Source: Cyanobacteriota bacterium (GTDB taxonomy: Bacteria > Acidobacteriota > Vicinamibacteria > Vicinamibacterales > UBA2999). Taken from it: a stretch of DNA of 32,116 nucleotides. Positions 15,424 to 22,863 of the stretch are shown in pieces. The position numbers and the translations under genes were made by a program. The notes below the pieces were generated by a model that did no database searches, was not told where the DNA came from, and saw only the letters and a program-made list of their open reading frames with translations. Position 1 is the stretch's first letter; each line of letters begins with the position of its first letter. Where the stretch lies: positions 1 through 32,116 of the forward strand of contig JAIEMQ010000039.1 of the NCBI GenBank assembly GCA_019752015.1. The letters are read 5' to 3'.

Positions 15424-17697
15424 CTAACCCTTGATCGAGTCGAGGAGCTTCTTCGCTTCCTCGAGGCGATCGAACTTCGACTTGCTGTTGACGGCCTTCT
15501 CGAGATACTTCTTCGCCTCGGCGTTGTTGCCGCTCTGATGGTACGCGAGCGCCAGGTGGTAGTTGTAATTGGGGTTGTCGGGTTGCCGTGTCGTGCTCGT
15601 CTTCATGGCTTCGATCGCCATCGACGAGAGGCCCTTCTTGTAATAGATGTAGCCGAGCGTGTCGTCGACCTCGTGCCGGTTCGGCAGCTGCGACTTCGCG
15701 GTCTGCGCGAGCTGCAGCGCCATGTCGAGGTTGCCATTGTTGTTGGCGTCGATCCAGGCGAGGTTGTTGGCGGCGACCGCGGCGCGCGGATCGGTCTGCA
15801 GGGCCTTGTTGTAGCGGACCTTCGCTTCGTCCTTGCGGCCCTGCAGCTCGAGGATGGTGCCGAGCATGGTGTTGCCGGGCACGGAATTCGGCGCGCGGTT
15901 CACGTAGGTTTCGAGCTCGCGGCGGGCGAGGTCGAGGCGGCCCTGCTGGTAATACATCTTACCGAGCATCGCGTAGGCTTGCAGGCTCTGCGGGTCGACC
16001 TCGACGGTTTTCTTGAGCGCCTTCTCCATGGCGAAGGCGTCGCCGAGCGCGTTGTAGGTCTGCGCCGACATCAGCAGCACGTTCGGATCGTTCGGCGTCA
16101 GCGCCAGCTGCTTCTCGATCAGTGCTTTGGCGTTGCCAAACTGCTTGCCCTGCATCTCGGCCGTCAGCAGCCCGGCGAGCGCCTGGTAGGAGCGGGGATC
16201 GGCTTCGAGCGCGCGGCTGTAGGCGGCGCGCGCGCCGGCGGTGTCCTGTTTCATCTGCGCCAGCATGCCGGCCGCGGTCTGGATCGTGGCGGAGTTCGGG
16301 CTGGCCTGCAGCAGCACGTTCATCTGCTGCGTGGCCTGCGGCAGGTCGCCGACCGCCATCAGGCCGTGCAGCAGGAGCAGTCGCGCTTCGAGGTTCTGCG
16401 GGTTGTCCTCGACGATCTTGAGCACGAGCGGTACCGCGTCCGCTGCGGAGCCGGTGTTGATCTGGAGGCGCGCCAGGCCGAGCCGGGCCTCCATGTTCTT
16501 GCCGTTGAGCTTCAACGCATCGTTGAACGCGGTGGTCGCCTCCTTGTTCGCGCCGCGAATGACATAGGTCTGCGCCAGCGCGAGGTGGGCGTCGATCGAT
16601 CGCGGATTGGCCTCGACCGCGGTTTGCAACGTCGACAGCGCGTTGACCGTGTTGTTCTCGGTCAGGTACAGCTTGCCGCGCGTGATCAAGGCATCCGGAT
16701 TCTTCGGCTCGCGCGCCAGCACGGCTTCGATCAGGCGATGCGCGTCGGCATTCTTGTTGGCGACGACTTCAATGCGCGCCAGCCGCACCGACGCGCCGAC
16801 GAAGGTGGCGTCGTTCTTGAGCAGCGGCGTCAGCGTCGCACGGGCATCGTCGATCCGTCCAAGGCGCAGATAGTACTCCGCGAGGAAGTACTTCGCTTCG
16901 GCGCCTGGCATGTGTTCGGCGACGATCTTCAGGTGCGGCTCGGCATCGGTCGGGCGGTTGGTCACCATGTAGTACATCGCCATCGCGCGATTGCCGGTGA
17001 CGCTCTTCGGCTCGAGCGCGAGGCCGGCCCGCATTTCCCGCTCGGCGCCCGGCAAGTCGCCGCTCGCCCACAGGAAGTTCGAGTACGAAAAGTGCGCGCC
17101 CGCATTCTTCGGATCGATCTGGATCGCCTTCTTGAACGCGGCATCGGCCGCTTCCTTGTTGCCGCTGACCATATGGATGGAGCCGAGCTCGGAGTACGTG
17201 CTCGATCGATTCGGATCGAGCTCGACCGCTTTCTCGAAGGTCGAGACGGCGCCGTCGAGGTCTTTCAATCCAGCCAGCGCGTTGGCGAGCAGGATGTGCG
17301 CTTCGACATCGTTGGGGTTGCGCTTCAGCATGCGCTCGGCCAGGCCTTGCGCGTCGGCGAACTGGCCGCCGAGCAGCATGAACGCGCCGGCGCGCTGCTG
17401 CGCTTCCTTGTTCTCCGGCATCAGGTCGGCGGCGCGAACGTATTCGCGGAGGGCATTCATGCCATCGCCGGTCGACGCATACGCATAGGCGAGCTGCAGC
17501 CGCGCTTCACCGAGGCGCGGGTCGGACTGCACCGCGCGGCGGTACTCGATGATCGCTTCGGGAAATTTTTTGCTTTGCGCATGCTGGTTGCCCTTTTCGA
17601 GGGCGTCCTTCGCGACCGCCTGCGGATCTTTCGAACATCCGCCCAGCGCGACCGTGGCCAGGATCGCCGTCAGGGCAATGGAGAGTCTTCGCATCAT
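15424..17697 (-). CDS. PEP-CTERM system TPR-repeat lipoprotein (PrsT/TIGR02917-like)
   Basis: About 757 residues. The start MMRRLSIALTAILATVALGG is a lipoprotein signal ending in the lipobox LGGC, with Cys21 the lipidation site and Ser at +2, which favours the outer membrane. The rest is an array of about 20 tetratricopeptide repeats with regular A..LA..Y...G...A and (D/N)P spacing, for example EKGNQHAQSKKFPEAIIEY, AIQIDPKNAGAHFSYSNFL and LARRELETYVNRAPNSVPG. In exosortase systems such proteins are thought to scaffold exopolysaccharide assembly or surface-protein processing. An ATG at 17865 is in frame but would bury the signal peptide, so 17697 (or 17694) is preferred. It lies downstream of the PEP-CTERM gene, with a hairpin in between. 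Confidence 0.9.
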   Translation of the reverse strand: MMRRLSIALTAILATVALGGCSKDPQAVAKDALEKGNQHAQSKKFPEAIIEYRRAVQSDPRLGEARLQLAYAYASTGDGMNALREYVRAADLMPENKEAQQRAGAFMLLGGQFADAQGLAERMLKRNPNDVEAHILLANALAGLKDLDGAVSTFEKAVELDPNRSSTYSELGSIHMVSGNKEAADAAFKKAIQIDPKNAGAHFSYSNFLWASGDLPGAEREMRAGLALEPKSVTGNRAMAMYYMVTNRPTDAEPHLKIVAEHMPGAEAKYFLAEYYLRLGRIDDARATLTPLLKNDATFVGASVRLARIEVVANKNADAHRLIEAVLAREPKNPDALITRGKLYLTENNTVNALSTLQTAVEANPRSIDAHLALAQTYVIRGANKEATTAFNDALKLNGKNMEARLGLARLQINTGSAADAVPLVLKIVEDNPQNLEARLLLLHGLMAVGDLPQATQQMNVLLQASPNSATIQTAAGMLAQMKQDTAGARAAYSRALEADPRSYQALAGLLTAEMQGKQFGNAKALIEKQLALTPNDPNVLLMSAQTYNALGDAFAMEKALKKTVEVDPQSLQAYAMLGKMYYQQGRLDLARRELETYVNRAPNSVPGNTMLGTILELQGRKDEAKVRYNKALQTDPRAAVAANNLAWIDANNNGNLDMALQLAQTAKSQLPNRHEVDDTLGYIYYKKGLSSMAIEAMKTSTTRQPDNPNYNYHLALAYHQSGNNAEAKKYLEKAVNSKSKFDRLEEAKKLLDSIKG

Positions 17698-17878
17698 GGG
17701 CCCGGCCATTACAAGAAACACGCCAAGCGGCCAATGCCGCGCATTGGCCGGGGCTGCGTCGTTTTCCGGCCTTCCGGGGGGTTTGGAAGAGGGAAGTCTT
17801 CGTTCTGACGTAGCGGGGAAGCGAGAAAGTCTCTCACTTGGGAGATATCTATTCTTTGTTGGCATCCGTACAGCCTAA
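17698..17878. other. Upstream region of the TPR lipoprotein gene
   Basis: About 180 bp without a gene. It should hold the promoter of the TPR lipoprotein if transcription does not pass the hairpin at 17879-17906. I see no -24/-12 pair and no GAC-N4-GTC dyad oriented to this gene. GCCAATGCCGCGCATTGGC (17729-17747) is a perfect inverted repeat with 8-bp arms (GCCAATGC/GCATTGGC) around three bases (CGC), about 30-50 bp before the start; it could be an operator or an attenuating hairpin. Confidence 0.4.
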
Positions 17879-17906
17879 GAGGAGGAGCGGGTAGACGCTC
17901 CTCCTC
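17879..17906 (-). terminator. Hairpin terminator downstream of the PEP-CTERM gene
   Basis: A perfect 11-bp inverted repeat (GAGGAGGAGCG / CGCTCCTCCTC) with a 6-base loop sits 20 bp after the PEP-CTERM stop codon. On the transcribed strand it is followed by only a short TT, so it may be a weak intrinsic terminator or an mRNA-stabilising 3' hairpin that separates a highly expressed substrate gene from the TPR gene. Confidence 0.65.
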
Positions 17907-17926: not shown

Positions 17927-18583
17927 TCACGCCTGACGGCGACGGGCCCTGAAGGCGGCCAGCAGACCCGTGCCGAGCAACATCATCGTGGCCGGTTCCG
18001 GAACTGCTGTGTTGCGAATGTCGGTGCTGATCACGACTCCGGGAGTGCCGTCCGGGTCGAGGCCGCGGGTCGTCATCGAGAAGCCGAAGAATTCCCACGG
18101 CAGCGTGGTCGACCAGTTGATCGCATCCATCAACTCTTCGGCCTTGAAGTCTGCGCCCGAGGCGACCAGCAGGCCGTTGGAGCCGCCCGTGAAGCCGGTG
18201 AAGCTGCCGGTCAACAGATCGATCGGATCGCAGTTGCCGTTGGCGTTGAGACCGACCGACAGGCCGGGGATGCAACCGGTCAACGTGATGAAGTTGTTGT
18301 CGGGGTTCGTGTTGAAGGCCAGGCTGCCGAACGGACCGCCGCGGCCCGTGCCCGCCGCGGTGCCGCTGACGGTGAAAACTCCGTTGCCCGTCGGAGCGCC
18401 GGTGATGTTCACGGCGCCGATCGGAATGTTCGAGCCGATCAGGTTCGTGCCGTCCCAGCTGATGGTGCCACCTTCGCCGGCCAGGCCGGTCTGGAAGTCG
18501 ATGACGGGCGCGGCCTGTGCCGTCGCCGCCATCAGGACGACCGCTCCGAGTGCGGCGCCCAACATTTTCAACTTAGCAAACAT
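17927..18583 (-). CDS. PEP-CTERM sorting-domain protein (exosortase substrate)
   Basis: About 218 residues with all parts of a PEP-CTERM protein. The N-terminal signal peptide MFAKLKMLGAALGAVVLMA ends in AQA (predicted cleavage before APVIDF). A Gly/Thr/Asn-rich secreted region of no recognised fold follows. The C-terminal sorting signal is VPEPATMMLLGTGLLAAF followed by a basic RARRRQA tail. The exosortase is expected to cut at the VPEP motif. I chose ATG 18583 because GGGAGG lies six bases upstream; a start at 18631 would precede the signal peptide. It has its own sigma-54-type promoter (18660-18676) and a 3' hairpin, so it is probably expressed separately and strongly. It lies between the exosortase/EpsI genes and the TPR lipoprotein. 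Confidence 0.93.
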   Translation of the reverse strand: MFAKLKMLGAALGAVVLMAATAQAAPVIDFQTGLAGEGGTISWDGTNLIGSNIPIGAVNITGAPTGNGVFTVSGTAAGTGRGGPFGSLAFNTNPDNNFITLTGCIPGLSVGLNANGNCDPIDLLTGSFTGFTGGSNGLLVASGADFKAEELMDAINWSTTLPWEFFGFSMTTRGLDPDGTPGVVISTDIRNTAVPEPATMMLLGTGLLAAFRARRRQA

Positions 18584-18659: not shown

Positions 18660-18676
18660 AGCAACAGTGCTGCCAA
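18660..18676 (-). promoter_or_regulatory. Sigma-54 (-24/-12) promoter of the PEP-CTERM gene
   Basis: The minus strand reads TTGGCAGCACTGTTGCT. Against the sigma-54 consensus TTGGCAC-N5-TTGCW it differs at the seventh base of the -24 element, and the GG-to-GC spacing is exact. Predicted start is near 18649, leaving a 66-base leader with a good Shine-Dalgarno. Dependence of PEP-CTERM genes on RpoN and the PrsK/PrsR pair has been reported in Betaproteobacteria, which supports this reading. Confidence 0.72.
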
Positions 18677-18769
18677 TGTCCGGCGCATTAGCGAAATGAA
18701 GAGTCTGCAAATCGATGATTCGTAAGTAGTTGTTGTTGCCACAGATAACGGGAAGTCACTCGTGCTGCC

Positions 18770-18826
18770 GACAAAAGTCGCGCGTTCGGCGAGCGTCAAG
18801 AGACACTCCTGACGGAGACAAAAGTT
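18770..18826. promoter_or_regulatory. Paired GACAAAAGT(C/T) sites upstream of the PEP-CTERM promoter
   Basis: GACAAAAGTC (18770-18779) and GACAAAAGTT (18817-18826) lie 47 bp apart, centred about 113 and 160 bp upstream of the -12 GC. This is the usual distance for binding sites of a sigma-54 enhancer-binding activator. The reverse complement of the first, GACTTTTGTC, occurs upstream of the exosortase promoter. Confidence 0.5.
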
Positions 18827-18846: not shown

Positions 18847-19494
18847 TCAGTTCGGCAGATAAGCGGGCAGCAGCGGGAAGATCTCGCGCGCGAATCCTTC
18901 GGCGAGTTTTTCCGCGGCTGCGCCGTCATCGTCGGCGCCGACGGGAATCGGCGCAATGACGCGCACGAGCGCGCCGTCGGTGCGATTGAGGCGGATCGCG
19001 TCGTTGATCAGGAAGGCCTTGCTCCAGTACTCGCTGGCGGTGACGCGCCCGTGGCTCTGATACCAATAGAGCACGAGCTGACGCTCGAGACCCTTCTGCA
19101 CGATGTAGCGATTGACGGTGATGTCGCGGCCGGCGCCATCGGCGTTGGTGATCGTCAGACGCCCTTCACGCACCGGCTCCCAGCCGGCGCCCGGCAGGCA
19201 GTTGAGCGGCGAGTGAATCGTGTCGCCCTGCCGCTGGCTGCCGTAGTAACCCATATAGAGGCCCACGGCTGCGCCCGGCTTGTAATAGATGCGCGACAGA
19301 TAATCGTCCACGCCGAGGACCTTGAGAATGTCTTCTTCCATCGGCGGATCGACGGTGGCTTGCCAGGCGCCCAGCGACATCGGGAACGCATCAAACGACG
19401 TGCGCGTGACGGCCGTTTCCGCTTTACGCGCGTTGGCGAGCAGAACGGTCGTCGTCCCGAACATCACGCACAACACGATGGCGCGAGTGATCAC
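18847..19494 (-). CDS. epsI: EpsI family protein, exosortase partner
   Basis: About 215 residues. A single N-terminal hydrophobic segment (VITRAIVLCVMFGTTTVLLA) anchors the protein. The periplasmic domain carries FPMSLGAWQA, DYLSRIYY, VGLYMGYYGSQRQGDTIHSP, NCLPGAGWEPV and VLYWYQSHGR, all hallmarks of EpsI proteins encoded beside or fused to exosortases. Its role is periplasmic and still poorly defined. Two starts are plausible: GTG 19494, with GGAGG four bases upstream, and ATG 19533, which overlaps the exosortase stop (ATGA) and would add 13 residues encoded by repeat copy C. I prefer GTG because the added residues (KLARRSLGAGG) are simply the translated repeat. It is co-transcribed with the exosortase. 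Confidence 0.9.
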   Translation of the reverse strand: MITRAIVLCVMFGTTTVLLANARKAETAVTRTSFDAFPMSLGAWQATVDPPMEEDILKVLGVDDYLSRIYYKPGAAVGLYMGYYGSQRQGDTIHSPLNCLPGAGWEPVREGRLTITNADGAGRDITVNRYIVQKGLERQLVLYWYQSHGRVTASEYWSKAFLINDAIRLNRTDGALVRVIAPIPVGADDDGAAAEKLAEGFAREIFPLLPAYLPN

Positions 19495-19500
19495 GTTCCC

Positions 19501-19530
19501 TCCTGCGCCAAGGCTACGGCGGGCAAGCTT
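19501..19530 (+). repeat. Dispersed ~30-bp repeat, copy C
   Basis: The core GCGCCAAGGCTACGGCGGGC matches copies A (6289-6316) and B (15391-15423). It occupies almost exactly the gap between the exosortase stop and the preferred EpsI start. On the minus strand its end reads AGGAGG and forms the EpsI ribosome-binding site. Confidence 0.62.
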
Positions 19531-20420
19531 CATGCGGACGCCGGCTCCGTCACCGGGACTTGCTTGACGACTTGAATTCTCTGCTCGCGCGGCGGCGGCA
19601 GGAACTTCTGCAGCAAGCGCTGCAGCGCGAACATCATCAGGAAGGCAATCACGAAGACCACCCACCCTGAAAATTCGTGGAACAGGCCTTCGACCCCGGC
19701 GTTGCCGAAGTTGTGCGCCGCGACGCCGGCGCTGGCGACGCGGAGGCCGTTGGCCAGGATCGCGACCGGGATCGCGGAGAGGGCAATGACCGCCCGCACC
19801 CAGGCGCGGCGATCGACGAAGTAGCCGAAGACAATGCCGAGCGTGAACAGCGACACCAGTGAGCGGATGCCGCTGCAGGCTTCCGCCACTTCGAGCGTCG
19901 CGTTCGCCAGGATCAGCACGTTGCCTTCGCGCAGGATCGGGATGTCGAGCGACCTGACCGAGTATTCGCCGACATTCGACGCCAGCAGCTGCAGCGGGAA
20001 GGCGATCTTGTTGAAGATAATCGCCGGCAGCGGCACCATCAGCAGCATGAAGGCAAGCGGGAACAGGACGATGCGGAGCATCGGCCAGCCGAACAGGAAG
20101 AGGATCGCACCGGCGACGGCGCCGATAATCGACACGCGCGACAGGAATAATTCGGCTCCGAGTAGTCCGGCGACGAGCAGGAACAGGCTGCCGCCGACGA
20201 CCAACGCGCCGAACATCGAAGGCCGCACCGGCGCCGCGGCAATCGCGTTGCGCCGCTCCCACGCGAAATACAGCGCGAGCGGGACTATGAAAAAGCCGTG
20301 GGAATAATTGTCGTCGGTGGACCAGGCGTCAACCAGTCCACGGATCACCGACCAATAGACCAGCAGCAGCGCGCCGAGCACCAGCCCCACTGCCACGAGT
20401 TTGTCCGACGCGCTCTTCAT
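19530..20420 (-). CDS. xrtA: Exosortase (XrtA/EpsH-type transpeptidase)
   Basis: A 296-residue integral membrane protein with about eight helices. The three conserved catalytic positions of exosortases are present: Cys182 in EVAEACSGIRSL, Arg227 in LANGLRVASAG and His248 in LFHEFSGW. DDNYSHGFFIVPLALYFAW near residue 40 is the usual N-terminal motif. The enzyme is thought to cleave PEP-CTERM proteins after translocation and pass them on to a surface acceptor. I chose ATG 20420 because AGGGA lies just upstream; an ATG at 20666 would add 82 non-conserved residues and run through the promoter. The XrtA subtype is inferred from the companion stp1-, O-ligase- and amidotransferase-type genes. It is followed by EpsI. 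Confidence 0.94.
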   Translation of the reverse strand: MKSASDKLVAVGLVLGALLLVYWSVIRGLVDAWSTDDNYSHGFFIVPLALYFAWERRNAIAAAPVRPSMFGALVVGGSLFLLVAGLLGAELFLSRVSIIGAVAGAILFLFGWPMLRIVLFPLAFMLLMVPLPAIIFNKIAFPLQLLASNVGEYSVRSLDIPILREGNVLILANATLEVAEACSGIRSLVSLFTLGIVFGYFVDRRAWVRAVIALSAIPVAILANGLRVASAGVAAHNFGNAGVEGLFHEFSGWVVFVIAFLMMFALQRLLQKFLPPPREQRIQVVKQVPVTEPASA

Positions 20421-20531: not shown

Positions 20532-20548
20532 AGCAAACGGTCTGCCAA
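20532..20548 (-). promoter_or_regulatory. Sigma-54 (-24/-12) promoter of the exosortase-epsI operon
   Basis: The minus strand reads TTGGCAGACCGTTTGCT, with one departure from TTGGCACRNNNNTTGCW (G for C at the seventh base) and exact spacing. Predicted start is about 20521, giving a leader of about 100 bases. TTGGCAG is shared exactly with the PEP-CTERM promoter at 18660-18676. This is the best match seen in the window. Confidence 0.75.
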
Positions 20549-20621
20549 CAATAGGGCATGGCGATAAGCCGCAAAAACGCCGGCCCGCTGACAACGGTGC
20601 AGCAGAGTCCCCGAAATGAGT

Positions 20622-20631
20622 GACTTTTGTC
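20622..20631. promoter_or_regulatory. GACTTTTGTC dyad upstream of the exosortase promoter
   Basis: The reverse complement, GACAAAAGTC, is identical to the site at 18770-18779. It is centred about 94 bp upstream of the -12 GC of the exosortase promoter, a typical enhancer position. It also lies about 90 bp before the divergent c-di-GMP gene, so a bound regulator could influence both. Confidence 0.5.
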
Positions 20632-20715
20632 CGCTTCGGGTGCACCGAAGAAACACGTGTGGTCATCGAAGCAACACGGAGCCGACGGCAGCAAAATTGC
20701 TCAATCGGCGGTGGG

Positions 20716-22863
20716 ATGGCGAAGAGTCCACATCGGGCACCGGAGCGACCGACGAATGGTCACGGCGTACCGACGCTGCTGTTGATCGAACCGGCCGAGA
20801 CCGGCCGGCGCACGATTCGGGAAGTGCTGGCCGCCGCCAGCGGCATGCTCGACATCGATCATGTGACGACCATCAAGGACGGTGTGGCGCGGCTGGGCCA
20901 GAATTCGGTGAGCGCGGTACTTCTCGATCTGGATCTGCCGGCAGCCCGCGACCTGACCGCGCTGGATGAGCTGCGGCGCGTTGCGCCCAAGGTCGCCATC
21001 ATGATCCTGACGCGCGCCGCCGACCAGGCGCTCGCTCGACGCGCCGTGGAGCGCGGCGCCAACGATTCCGTGGTCACCGATCAGATCGACTCGCGCAGCC
21101 TGGTGCAGTTGATCGCGATGATGTTCGAGCGGCGGGCGAGCGAGGAGCAGAAGTTCGTCGAGCTCGAGCGCGCGGAAGTGACGCTGAATTCGATCGGCGA
21201 CGCGGTCATGACCACCGACACGCTGGGCAACGTCACCTATCTCAATGCCGAGGCCGAAGCGTTGACCGGCTGGACGCGCTCGGAGGCGTTTGCGCGTCCG
21301 CTCGCGGAGGTGTTCGACGTCACCGACGGCCTGACCGGTCAGCACGCGCAGGATCCGTCGCGGCTGGCCATCGAGCACAAGAGGAAGGTGCGGCTCAAGG
21401 GCAATTACATCCTGGTCGGCCGTGAAGGCAACGAGACGGCGATTGAGCACTCGGCGGCGCCGATTCACGATCGCCAGGGCAACATTCTCGGCGCGGTCAT
21501 TGTCTTCCGCGACGTGATCGTGTCGCGCGAGCGCCGGTTGCAGATGCTGCACCTCGCCGAGCACGACGCGCTCACGGACCTGCCGAATCGCCTGCTGCTC
21601 AACGATCGCCTGGCGCGATCGATCGCGCTGGCCCGCCGCTATGGCCGCCGGCTCGCGGTGTTGTTCCTCGATTGCGATCGCTTCAAGCACATCAACGACA
21701 CGCTGGGTCATGCGATCGGCGACCAGGTCTTGCGATCGGTGGCGAAGCGGTTGACGACGTGCGTGCGCGAGTCGGATACGGTCAGCCGCCACGGCGGCGA
21801 CGAGTTCCTGATTCTGCTGTCGGAGCTCGATCAGCCCGAGGACGCGGAAGCGATCGCGCAGAAGATCGTCACGTCGATCGCCGAGCCGCACCTCGTCTCC
21901 GGGCACGAGCTGCAGATCACCGCCAGCGCCGGCATCGCGCTGTATCCGGAAGACGGTCAGGACGCGCAGTCGCTGATTATGCGCGCCGACACGGCGATGT
22001 ATTACGCGAAGAACACCGGCCGCAACCGCGTCGGCTTCTACAAGCCCGACATGGAGGCGCCGGCGATCAAGCGGTCGTCGATCGACTCCGAGCTGCGCAG
22101 CGCGCTCGACAAAGGTGAGTTCGAGCTGTTTTATCAGCCGACGATCGATCTCGAGACCGGCGTCATCAGCGGCGCCGAGGCGCTGATGCGCTGGCGGCAT
22201 CCGGAGCGTGGCATCATTGCGCCCGATCAGTTCATTCCCGCCGCCGAGGCCTCAGGCCTGATCGTGCCGATGGGACGCTGGGCGTTGCGCGAGGCCTGCC
22301 GGCAGGCGAAGGCGTGGCAGGACGCCGGCCTGCCGGCGATTCCGATCGCGGTCAACGTGTCGGCACTGCAGTTCCGCACCGCCGGGTTCCTCGAGGACAT
22401 CATGCGCTTCCTTGCCGAATCGGCTTTGCAACCGCAATACCTCGAGCTCGAGCTGACCGAGAGCGCGTTGATGGTCGACAACGCCTCGACGATGTCGCTG
22501 CTCGAAGTGTTGAAGCAACACGGCATCCTGCTCAAGGTCGACGACTTCGGCACCGGGCCGTCGAGTCTCAGTTACCTGCAGCGCTGCCCGGTTGACGTGC
22601 TGAAGATCGATCAGTCGTTCGTGGCCGACATCGATCCGCAGCCGGAGAGCGCGCCGCTGGTCCGCGCCGTGATCGCGATGGGCAAGAGCCTCGGCTGCCG
22701 CGTGGTTGCGGAAGGCGTCGAGACGAAGCAGCAGTTTGCGTATCTGCGGGCGGAGAACTGCGACGAAGGCCAGGGCTACCACTTCAGTCCGCCGGTGAAC
22801 GCCGCGACCTTCGAGCGCCTGCTGTCCAACGCCCCCTACGCCCTTCCCGAAGTCAAAAACTAG
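20716..22863 (+). CDS. c-di-GMP turnover protein: receiver-like, PAS, GGDEF and EAL domains
   Basis: About 715 residues. Residues 18-135 form a receiver-like domain with phospho-acceptor candidate Asp71 (VLLDLDLP), but strand-1 acidic residues are reduced to IEPAE and the strand-5 Lys is missing (VVTDQI), so phosphorylation is doubtful. A PAS domain follows (about 150-270; LNSIGDAVMTTDTLGNVTYL). The cyclase domain has an intact GGDEF (360-364) and the inhibitory RxxD site (RESD, 351-354) five residues before it. The EAL domain has EAL (488-490), NVSALQF, ELTES, DDFGTG (609-614) and VVAEGVET. Both making and degrading c-di-GMP are therefore possible. ATG 20716 is chosen because the frame upstream is not domain-like. 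It is divergent from the exosortase operon. Confidence 0.93.
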   Translation: MAKSPHRAPERPTNGHGVPTLLLIEPAETGRRTIREVLAAASGMLDIDHVTTIKDGVARLGQNSVSAVLLDLDLPAARDLTALDELRRVAPKVAIMILTRAADQALARRAVERGANDSVVTDQIDSRSLVQLIAMMFERRASEEQKFVELERAEVTLNSIGDAVMTTDTLGNVTYLNAEAEALTGWTRSEAFARPLAEVFDVTDGLTGQHAQDPSRLAIEHKRKVRLKGNYILVGREGNETAIEHSAAPIHDRQGNILGAVIVFRDVIVSRERRLQMLHLAEHDALTDLPNRLLLNDRLARSIALARRYGRRLAVLFLDCDRFKHINDTLGHAIGDQVLRSVAKRLTTCVRESDTVSRHGGDEFLILLSELDQPEDAEAIAQKIVTSIAEPHLVSGHELQITASAGIALYPEDGQDAQSLIMRADTAMYYAKNTGRNRVGFYKPDMEAPAIKRSSIDSELRSALDKGEFELFYQPTIDLETGVISGAEALMRWRHPERGIIAPDQFIPAAEASGLIVPMGRWALREACRQAKAWQDAGLPAIPIAVNVSALQFRTAGFLEDIMRFLAESALQPQYLELELTESALMVDNASTMSLLEVLKQHGILLKVDDFGTGPSSLSYLQRCPVDVLKIDQSFVADIDPQPESAPLVRAVIAMGKSLGCRVVAEGVETKQQFAYLRAENCDEGQGYHFSPPVNAATFERLLSNAPYALPEVKN

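Follow-up and report, generated by a model that had tools for sequence, protein, structure and literature searches.

The segment at positions 18,660 to 18,826 of the window (the whole 32,116-nucleotide stretch of DNA analysed here) is, with a probability of about three in four, the promoter region of a PEP-CTERM substrate gene in a sigma-54 regulon, whose enhancer box and activator are shared with the exosortase-epsI operon and whose activator is likely a receiver-less protein. According to this reading, an activator would bind a 32-bp inverted repeat, GACAAAAGTC-N12-GACTT, contact RNA polymerase-sigma-54 at a -24/-12 site 54-145 bp downstream, and open the promoter. A box of this kind would also serve the exosortase-epsI operon, that copy probably also acting on a divergent GGDEF/EAL gene, and a further putative copy lies before prsT. 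The activator would most likely be the receiver-less sigma-54 AAA+ protein encoded at G000:C52:15669-16793 of the source genome. Since boxes are common to exosortase-epsI, prsT and the substrate gene, the sorting enzyme, its accessory proteins and the substrate would be induced together. The first-pass annotation had proposed shared sigma-54 control of sortase and substrate, a claim that was right but understated, as it overlooked the complete repeat, prsT, the likely activator and the promoter of the divergent GGDEF/EAL gene.

A sorting signal, an exosortase and EpsI, the features by which a PEP-CTERM/exosortase system is recognised, are all present at the locus. The genes concerned are:

15424-17709, minus strand: prsT, TPR lipoprotein of the PEP-CTERM system (TIGR02917, 343.8 bits; cut-off 312.2)
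17927-18583, minus strand: PEP-CTERM substrate gene, with signal peptide and VPEPATMMLLGTGLLAAFRARRRQA tail (TIGR02595 and PF07589 above cut-off)
18847-19494, minus strand: EpsI, exosortase-associated protein (TIGR02914 above cut-off)
19530-20420, minus strand: exosortase, XrtA/XrtW-like (TIGR03109, 209.5 bits, cut-off 208; TIGR02602 above cut-off)
20716-22863, plus strand: response-receiver/PAS/GGDEF/EAL protein (c-di-GMP turnover), divergent from the exosortase gene

The substrate gene starts with the ATG at 18583-18581 on the minus strand. The exosortase start codon was positioned by reading the sequence, and the start of prsT is uncertain, the listed open reading frame extending to 17865. 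The gap between the substrate gene and prsT also contains a perfect 11-bp inverted repeat (17879-17906), read as a hairpin without a clear T-run.

Promoters were scored against a hand-weighted sigma-54 consensus with a maximum of 30.5, and the following sites were assigned at the locus:

17710-17726, minus strand: tentative sigma-54-like site of prsT, TTGGCGTGTTTCTTGTA, score 23.5, under the threshold of 24 used elsewhere
18660-18676, minus strand: sigma-54 (-24/-12) promoter of the substrate gene, TTGGCAGCACTGTTGCT, score 28.5
20532-20548, minus strand: sigma-54 promoter of exosortase-epsI, TTGGCAGACCGTTTGCT
20685-20701, plus strand: divergent sigma-54-like site directed toward the GGDEF/EAL gene, ACGGCAGCAAAATTGCT, score 25.5

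The substrate and exosortase elements lie where they had previously been placed, and the description of the substrate leader and its strong ribosome-binding site also holds (about 65 nt and GGGAGGAC, as read from the sequence). The substrate, exosortase and divergent sites each have GG at -24 and GC at -12 with the usual spacing, and the divergent site is just ~15 nt ahead of the GGDEF/EAL ATG. The prsT site is graded tentative because it is weaker, with GT rather than GC at -12, and abuts a possible ATG start codon.

Two decamers had been described upstream of the substrate promoter, and both are present, GACAAAAGTC at 18770-18779 and GACAAAAGTT at 18817-18826 (plus strand), separated from TTGGCAGCACTGTTGCT by 93 and 140 bases, respectively. 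As stated before, GACAAAAGTC is the exact reverse complement of the exosortase decamer GACTTTTGTC (20622-20631). What did not stand is that the decamers are sites in their own right: they are halves of GTC-N12-GAC, the decamer forming the left half of the 32-bp box, whose consensus after refinement is roughly GACaAAAGTCgcC-N5-gGcaGACTT. Two box matrices, trained without the source genome and giving the paired scores below, identify four copies in the window:

17823-17854, minus strand: putative enhancer box before prsT, 16.9 and 19.1 bits
18749-18780, minus strand: proximal substrate box, CGACTTTTGTCGGCAGCACGAGTGACTTCCCG, which holds GACAAAAGTC, 18.6 and 20.9 bits
18796-18827, minus strand: weaker, distal substrate box, which holds GACAAAAGTT, 10.1 and 14.8 bits
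20601-20632, minus strand: box in the gap between the exosortase and divergent GGDEF/EAL genes, GGACAAAAGTCACTCATTTCGGGGACTCTGCT, 19.7 and 19.6 bits

The remaining window matches of 12-17 bits resemble background. The proximal substrate and exosortase boxes are complete, whereas the distal substrate box has a degenerate right half, with GTC replacing GAC. The proximal box is centred ~89 bp from the -24 element. The exosortase box is midway between the two divergent sigma-54-like sites, with the start of each site 84 nt from that of the box.

The intergenic region upstream of the exosortase has diverged strongly in the congeneric species G082 except for a few blocks, which in the alignment hold GCGGACAAAAGTCA, GGACTCTG and TTGGCA..CC.TTTGCT. 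The exosortase box of G082 is a conserved block of 18.3 bits, the exosortase sigma-54 site is TTGGCAACCCATTTGCT, and the divergent site ACGGCAACGAATTTGCT (25.5) precedes the same kind of GGDEF/EAL gene, the box start being 87 and 85 nt from the two divergent sites. The PEP-CTERM gene of G082 has the site ATGGCAGAAGGATTGCT (27.5), and its prsT has a weaker box (9.7 bits) and a sigma-54-like site, CTGGCGCAATTCTTGTA, of 23.5. The arrangement at 20601-20716 of the window, where a single box kept in G082 lies between the exosortase and receiver-PAS-GGDEF-EAL sites, is a possible link of c-di-GMP to sorting.

A composite pattern, which combines the sigma-54 core with a suitably spaced AGTC-N12-GAC read on the opposite strand, had three matches in the source genome and none in the backward control. 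Two of the three are the substrate and exosortase promoters, and the third (C37) has a box of merely 2.1 bits. The whole genome of G082 has two matches, which are its exosortase and PEP-CTERM gene promoters. Across the order the pattern matched 23 times and its backward control 20 times; beyond this genus, matches to so strict a form are thus mostly due to chance. Besides the genus's four promoters there were 19 matches, 15 of them inside frames of at least 150 aa, though at L311, L318 and L323 the box scores 21-24 bits.

We analysed 118 PEP-CTERM regions of the order, 116 with a start, from 40 genomes, of which 114 had enough upstream sequence. A sigma-54 score of at least 24 was found within 300 bp on the coding strand for 80/114 PEP-CTERM upstreams, compared with 12 on the reverse strand, 12 in mirrored and 11 in complemented sequence; at a score of at least 26, the numbers were 48/114 against 3, 1 and 5. 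Among 178 non-PEP open reading frames of exosortase loci (first ATG, 300 bp), 34 and 12 had sites at these two thresholds. We also counted trimer dyads with gaps of 0-12 in the 170 bp ahead of the sigma-54 sites of 78 genes and set the counts against dinucleotide-resampled sequence. GTC-N12-GAC ranked first (30/78, 4.2 expected), and GAC-N4-GTC, the frame of the earlier decamer, was likewise high (21/78, 4.15 expected). The spacing is sharp, with AGTC-N12-GACT present in 14 of the 78 and any other spacing from 0 to 30 in none or one.

Boxes of at least 13 bits precede 54/114 PEP-CTERM genes (350 bp), against 0.6 in shuffled and 1 in mirrored sequence, and 52/114 when the gene's own genome was withheld from training; the other 60 upstreams had no box at this threshold. 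A sigma-54 site is present for 48 of the 54 box-positive genes vs 32 of the 60 box-negative ones (Fisher 3e-5), and in 46 of those 48 the box is upstream of the site, with its centre 54-145 bp away (median ~90). In 29 exosortase loci, which include the window and some genomes that also gave training sites, there were 29 box sites of at least 16 bits and none in mirrored sequence. Only six of the 29 exosortase upstreams have a box, and in at least 10 of these loci a PEP-CTERM frame ends directly before the exosortase. The box is not enriched in 25 exosortase loci from outside the order (23 carry the label Acidobacteria or one of its subgroups, one is Myxococcales and one Planctomycetota), where five sites of at least 14 bits compare with 11 mirrored. 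The enrichment of site and box before the PEP-CTERM genes of relatives supports the idea that sortase and substrate would be co-regulated from separate promoters.

The expectation that promoter and box recur before other PEP-CTERM genes was thus strongly borne out in the relatives and more thinly in the source genome itself, where three further PEP-CTERM matches exceed the cut-off. Upstream of the gene on C8, a box of 19.1 bits lies 132 nt before a weak sigma-54-like site (24.0). For the gene on C52 the sigma-54-like site is strong (28.0) and overlaps the listed start, and no suitably spaced box exceeds 12.0 bits. The match on C4 lies in a 39-residue frame in which no intact gene was seen; this match (G000:C4:52629-52697, L022) is the genome's best to PF07589 and is either a fragment or a very small gene that has escaped recognition. 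Whole-genome scans with a covariance model of this repeat were set aside for lack of sensitivity: scoring 150 candidates in each genome, they gave five weak matches in four genomes (four in G082, one in G158, none in G155), and none at E 10 in the source genome, where 150 of 968 candidates were scored.

The leading candidate for the activator is the receiver-less protein, because its family tracks PEP-CTERM genes and a box precedes 8/29 of its genes (0 mirrored); no box of at least 13 bits was found upstream of the source genome's own copy. The candidate is the single source-genome match at E 1e-10. It has a sigma-54 AAA+ domain at residues 28-195 of 374 and no receiver match, and its gene directly follows a PilZ gene, with a PEP-CTERM gene ~1 kb away. 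The activator C-terminal domain occurs in 75/162 genomes of the order and in all 26 genomes with a close exosortase. It is found in 56/63 genomes with a PEP-CTERM match vs 19/99 without (Fisher 5e-19, a significance inflated by shared ancestry), a co-occurrence computed for the receiver-less family alone among sigma-54 activators. In G088, G104 and G046 the receiver-less form is found near PEP-CTERM genes or the exosortase, and the activators of these genomes have a common C-terminal stretch, ESFW...YKRFLNFLRK.

Like PspF-type receiver-less enhancer-binding proteins, the candidate has an AAA+ sigma-54 domain without an N-terminal receiver; unlike them, it reaches 254.3 bits for TIGR02974, with a cut-off of 443.55, and no Pfam family matches its last 84 residues, the best E being 0.04 for an unrelated DUF. 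The C-terminus also gave no significant match to a solved structure, and our reading of its letters suggests a resemblance to Fis-like DNA-binding regions. It is this protein that would bind the box. For activators without N-terminal domains, a partner protein or a cascade has been suggested (PMC4641369). The sigma-54 contact loop is GSFTGA in the candidate; among 23 proteins of relatives it is GSFTDA in five (G084, G085, G086, G087 and G088, at L278, L283, L280, L279 and L277) and GAFTGA in one. In several genomes, paralogues of this family occur as adjacent or divergent pairs.

An unlikely, but not negligible, alternative is that promoters and box are real and the activator is some other NtrC-like response regulator, namely a divergent form of PrsR together with its kinase, the arrangement of Proteobacteria. 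There, PrsR is the predicted activator (PMC1569441), and the account of Desulfovibrio DVUA0057, a predicted PEP-CTERM regulator, describes DAP-chip detection at its five predicted PEP-CTERM targets (PMC3333781). In the source genome 24 proteins match much of the PrsR model TIGR02915 at 259 bits or more; the candidate is among these, and the 23 others match the sigma-54 part of PrsR. A receiver-type activator also adjoins the PEP-CTERM locus L126 (G054). However, the best PrsR match, of 436.6 bits, is below the cut-off of 502.6, and the best for PrsK (TIGR02916) is 109.8 against a cut-off of 300, with matches nearly all in the kinase part. The association with PEP-CTERM genes and the boxes before its own genes favour the receiver-less family instead.

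It is less likely still that the box controls exopolysaccharide genes at large, the PEP-CTERM genes being a mere part of its targets. The 19 genomes that have the activator family and no PEP-CTERM match would fit this, as would an export-type gene after the activator in 8/30 loci (scored with a short pattern) and a box before 15/178 non-PEP open reading frames of exosortase loci (300 bp). Against it, the 54 box-carrying PEP-CTERM genes are spread over 28 genomes and are mostly outside exosortase loci. At L269:4319-5794 (G000:C52), the PilZ gene is followed by that of the receiver-less activator, whose end overlaps a gene for exopolysaccharide export; this export gene scores 138.7 bits for TIGR03027, under the cut-off of 180.

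Taken singly, the short motifs are weak markers. With one mismatch GACWWWWGTC has six matches in the window, a number reached in 26 of 100 shuffles, and TTGGCA-N6-TTGC has four, reached in six. A genome-wide scan for TTGGCA-N6-TTGC near genes for VPEP-tailed products had been put forward as a check of the claim; over the whole genome the core gave 10 matches, two of them here, against nine in the backward control, and this core alone was dropped as a genomic marker. GACAAAAGTC occurs three times in the 5.9 Mb source genome, twice at this locus. RACAAAAGTY is rarer than in the backward control (eight in 5.92 Mb vs 19), and three of the eight are in these two intergenic regions; no sigma-54-like site of at least 26.5 was found within the 3 kb around the other five (L114-L117 and L121). 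That the motifs are alike by chance can draw on their frequency in the window and the unenriched promoter core, but is very improbable, being contradicted by the PEP-CTERM upstream controls for sigma-54 site and box, the own-genome composite control, the conserved blocks in G082, the rarity of RACAAAAGTY and the excess of GTC-N12-GAC.

Sigma-54 control of PEP-CTERM genes is already known. The text of Haft et al. 2006 describes a 17-nt box ending in TTTACA and a sigma-54 site before 99/167 proteobacterial PEP-CTERM genes, finds the box only in Proteobacteria, names PrsK, PrsR and PrsT, and expects further regulatory proteins and motifs still to be discovered (PMC1569441). The arrangement described there, with an upstream box that is sometimes repeated, then a sigma-54 site (mean spacer 62.8 nt) and then the PEP-CTERM gene, is like that seen here, as are the presence of PrsT and the exopolysaccharide setting (PMC1569441). 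In contrast to the 17-nt TTTACA box (PMC1569441), the repeat described here spans 32 nt, occurs in apparently another phylum and also precedes the exosortase, and PrsR and PrsK are under cut-off. The source genome would belong to the Acidobacteria, judging by the label of 23 out of 25 named exosortase relatives. The hexamer TTTACA, the end of the proteobacterial motif alone, was present in 6/78 upstreams (2.15 expected). In Aquincola tertiaricarbonis, pepA is reported to be RpoN1-dependent, with a mapped start, and next to prsT, so that the PEP-CTERM gene is upstream of prsT as it is here; however, PrsK/PrsR are present in that organism and prsT is described as unaffected by rpoN1 disruption, whereas here prsT has a box (PMC9850573). 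Among the matches listed for the open-licence literature, none reports such a box or activator outside Proteobacteria. As far as our searches go, the operator, its sharing with the exosortase and probably the GGDEF/EAL gene, and the likely activator are new.

This provides a regulatory motif for PEP-CTERM genes in apparently another phylum. Control of these genes becomes testable by gel shift and reporter assays, now that the operator is defined and there is a single candidate protein, and the operator could reveal regulon members without a recognisable sorting signal. We also consider, at slightly less than even odds, a broader reading in which a one-component receiver-less activator with a new DNA-binding domain and a new 32-bp operator replaces PrsK/PrsR, governs an order-wide regulon and is wired to c-di-GMP. 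The c-di-GMP wiring is suggested because a PilZ gene precedes the activator and a single enhancer would drive the exosortase and GGDEF/EAL genes in opposite directions.

Beyond the order, a search with the activator C-terminus at E 1e-20 matched 35 of 396 sampled genomes of the phylum, 21 of them in the order. The 14 matches outside it score at most 104.2 bits, and 11 lie in open frames of 868-1841 aa. In G231, G283, G444, G169, G208, G319, G184 and G298 the C-terminal domain is part of open frames of 1649-1841 aa, which are perhaps fusions.
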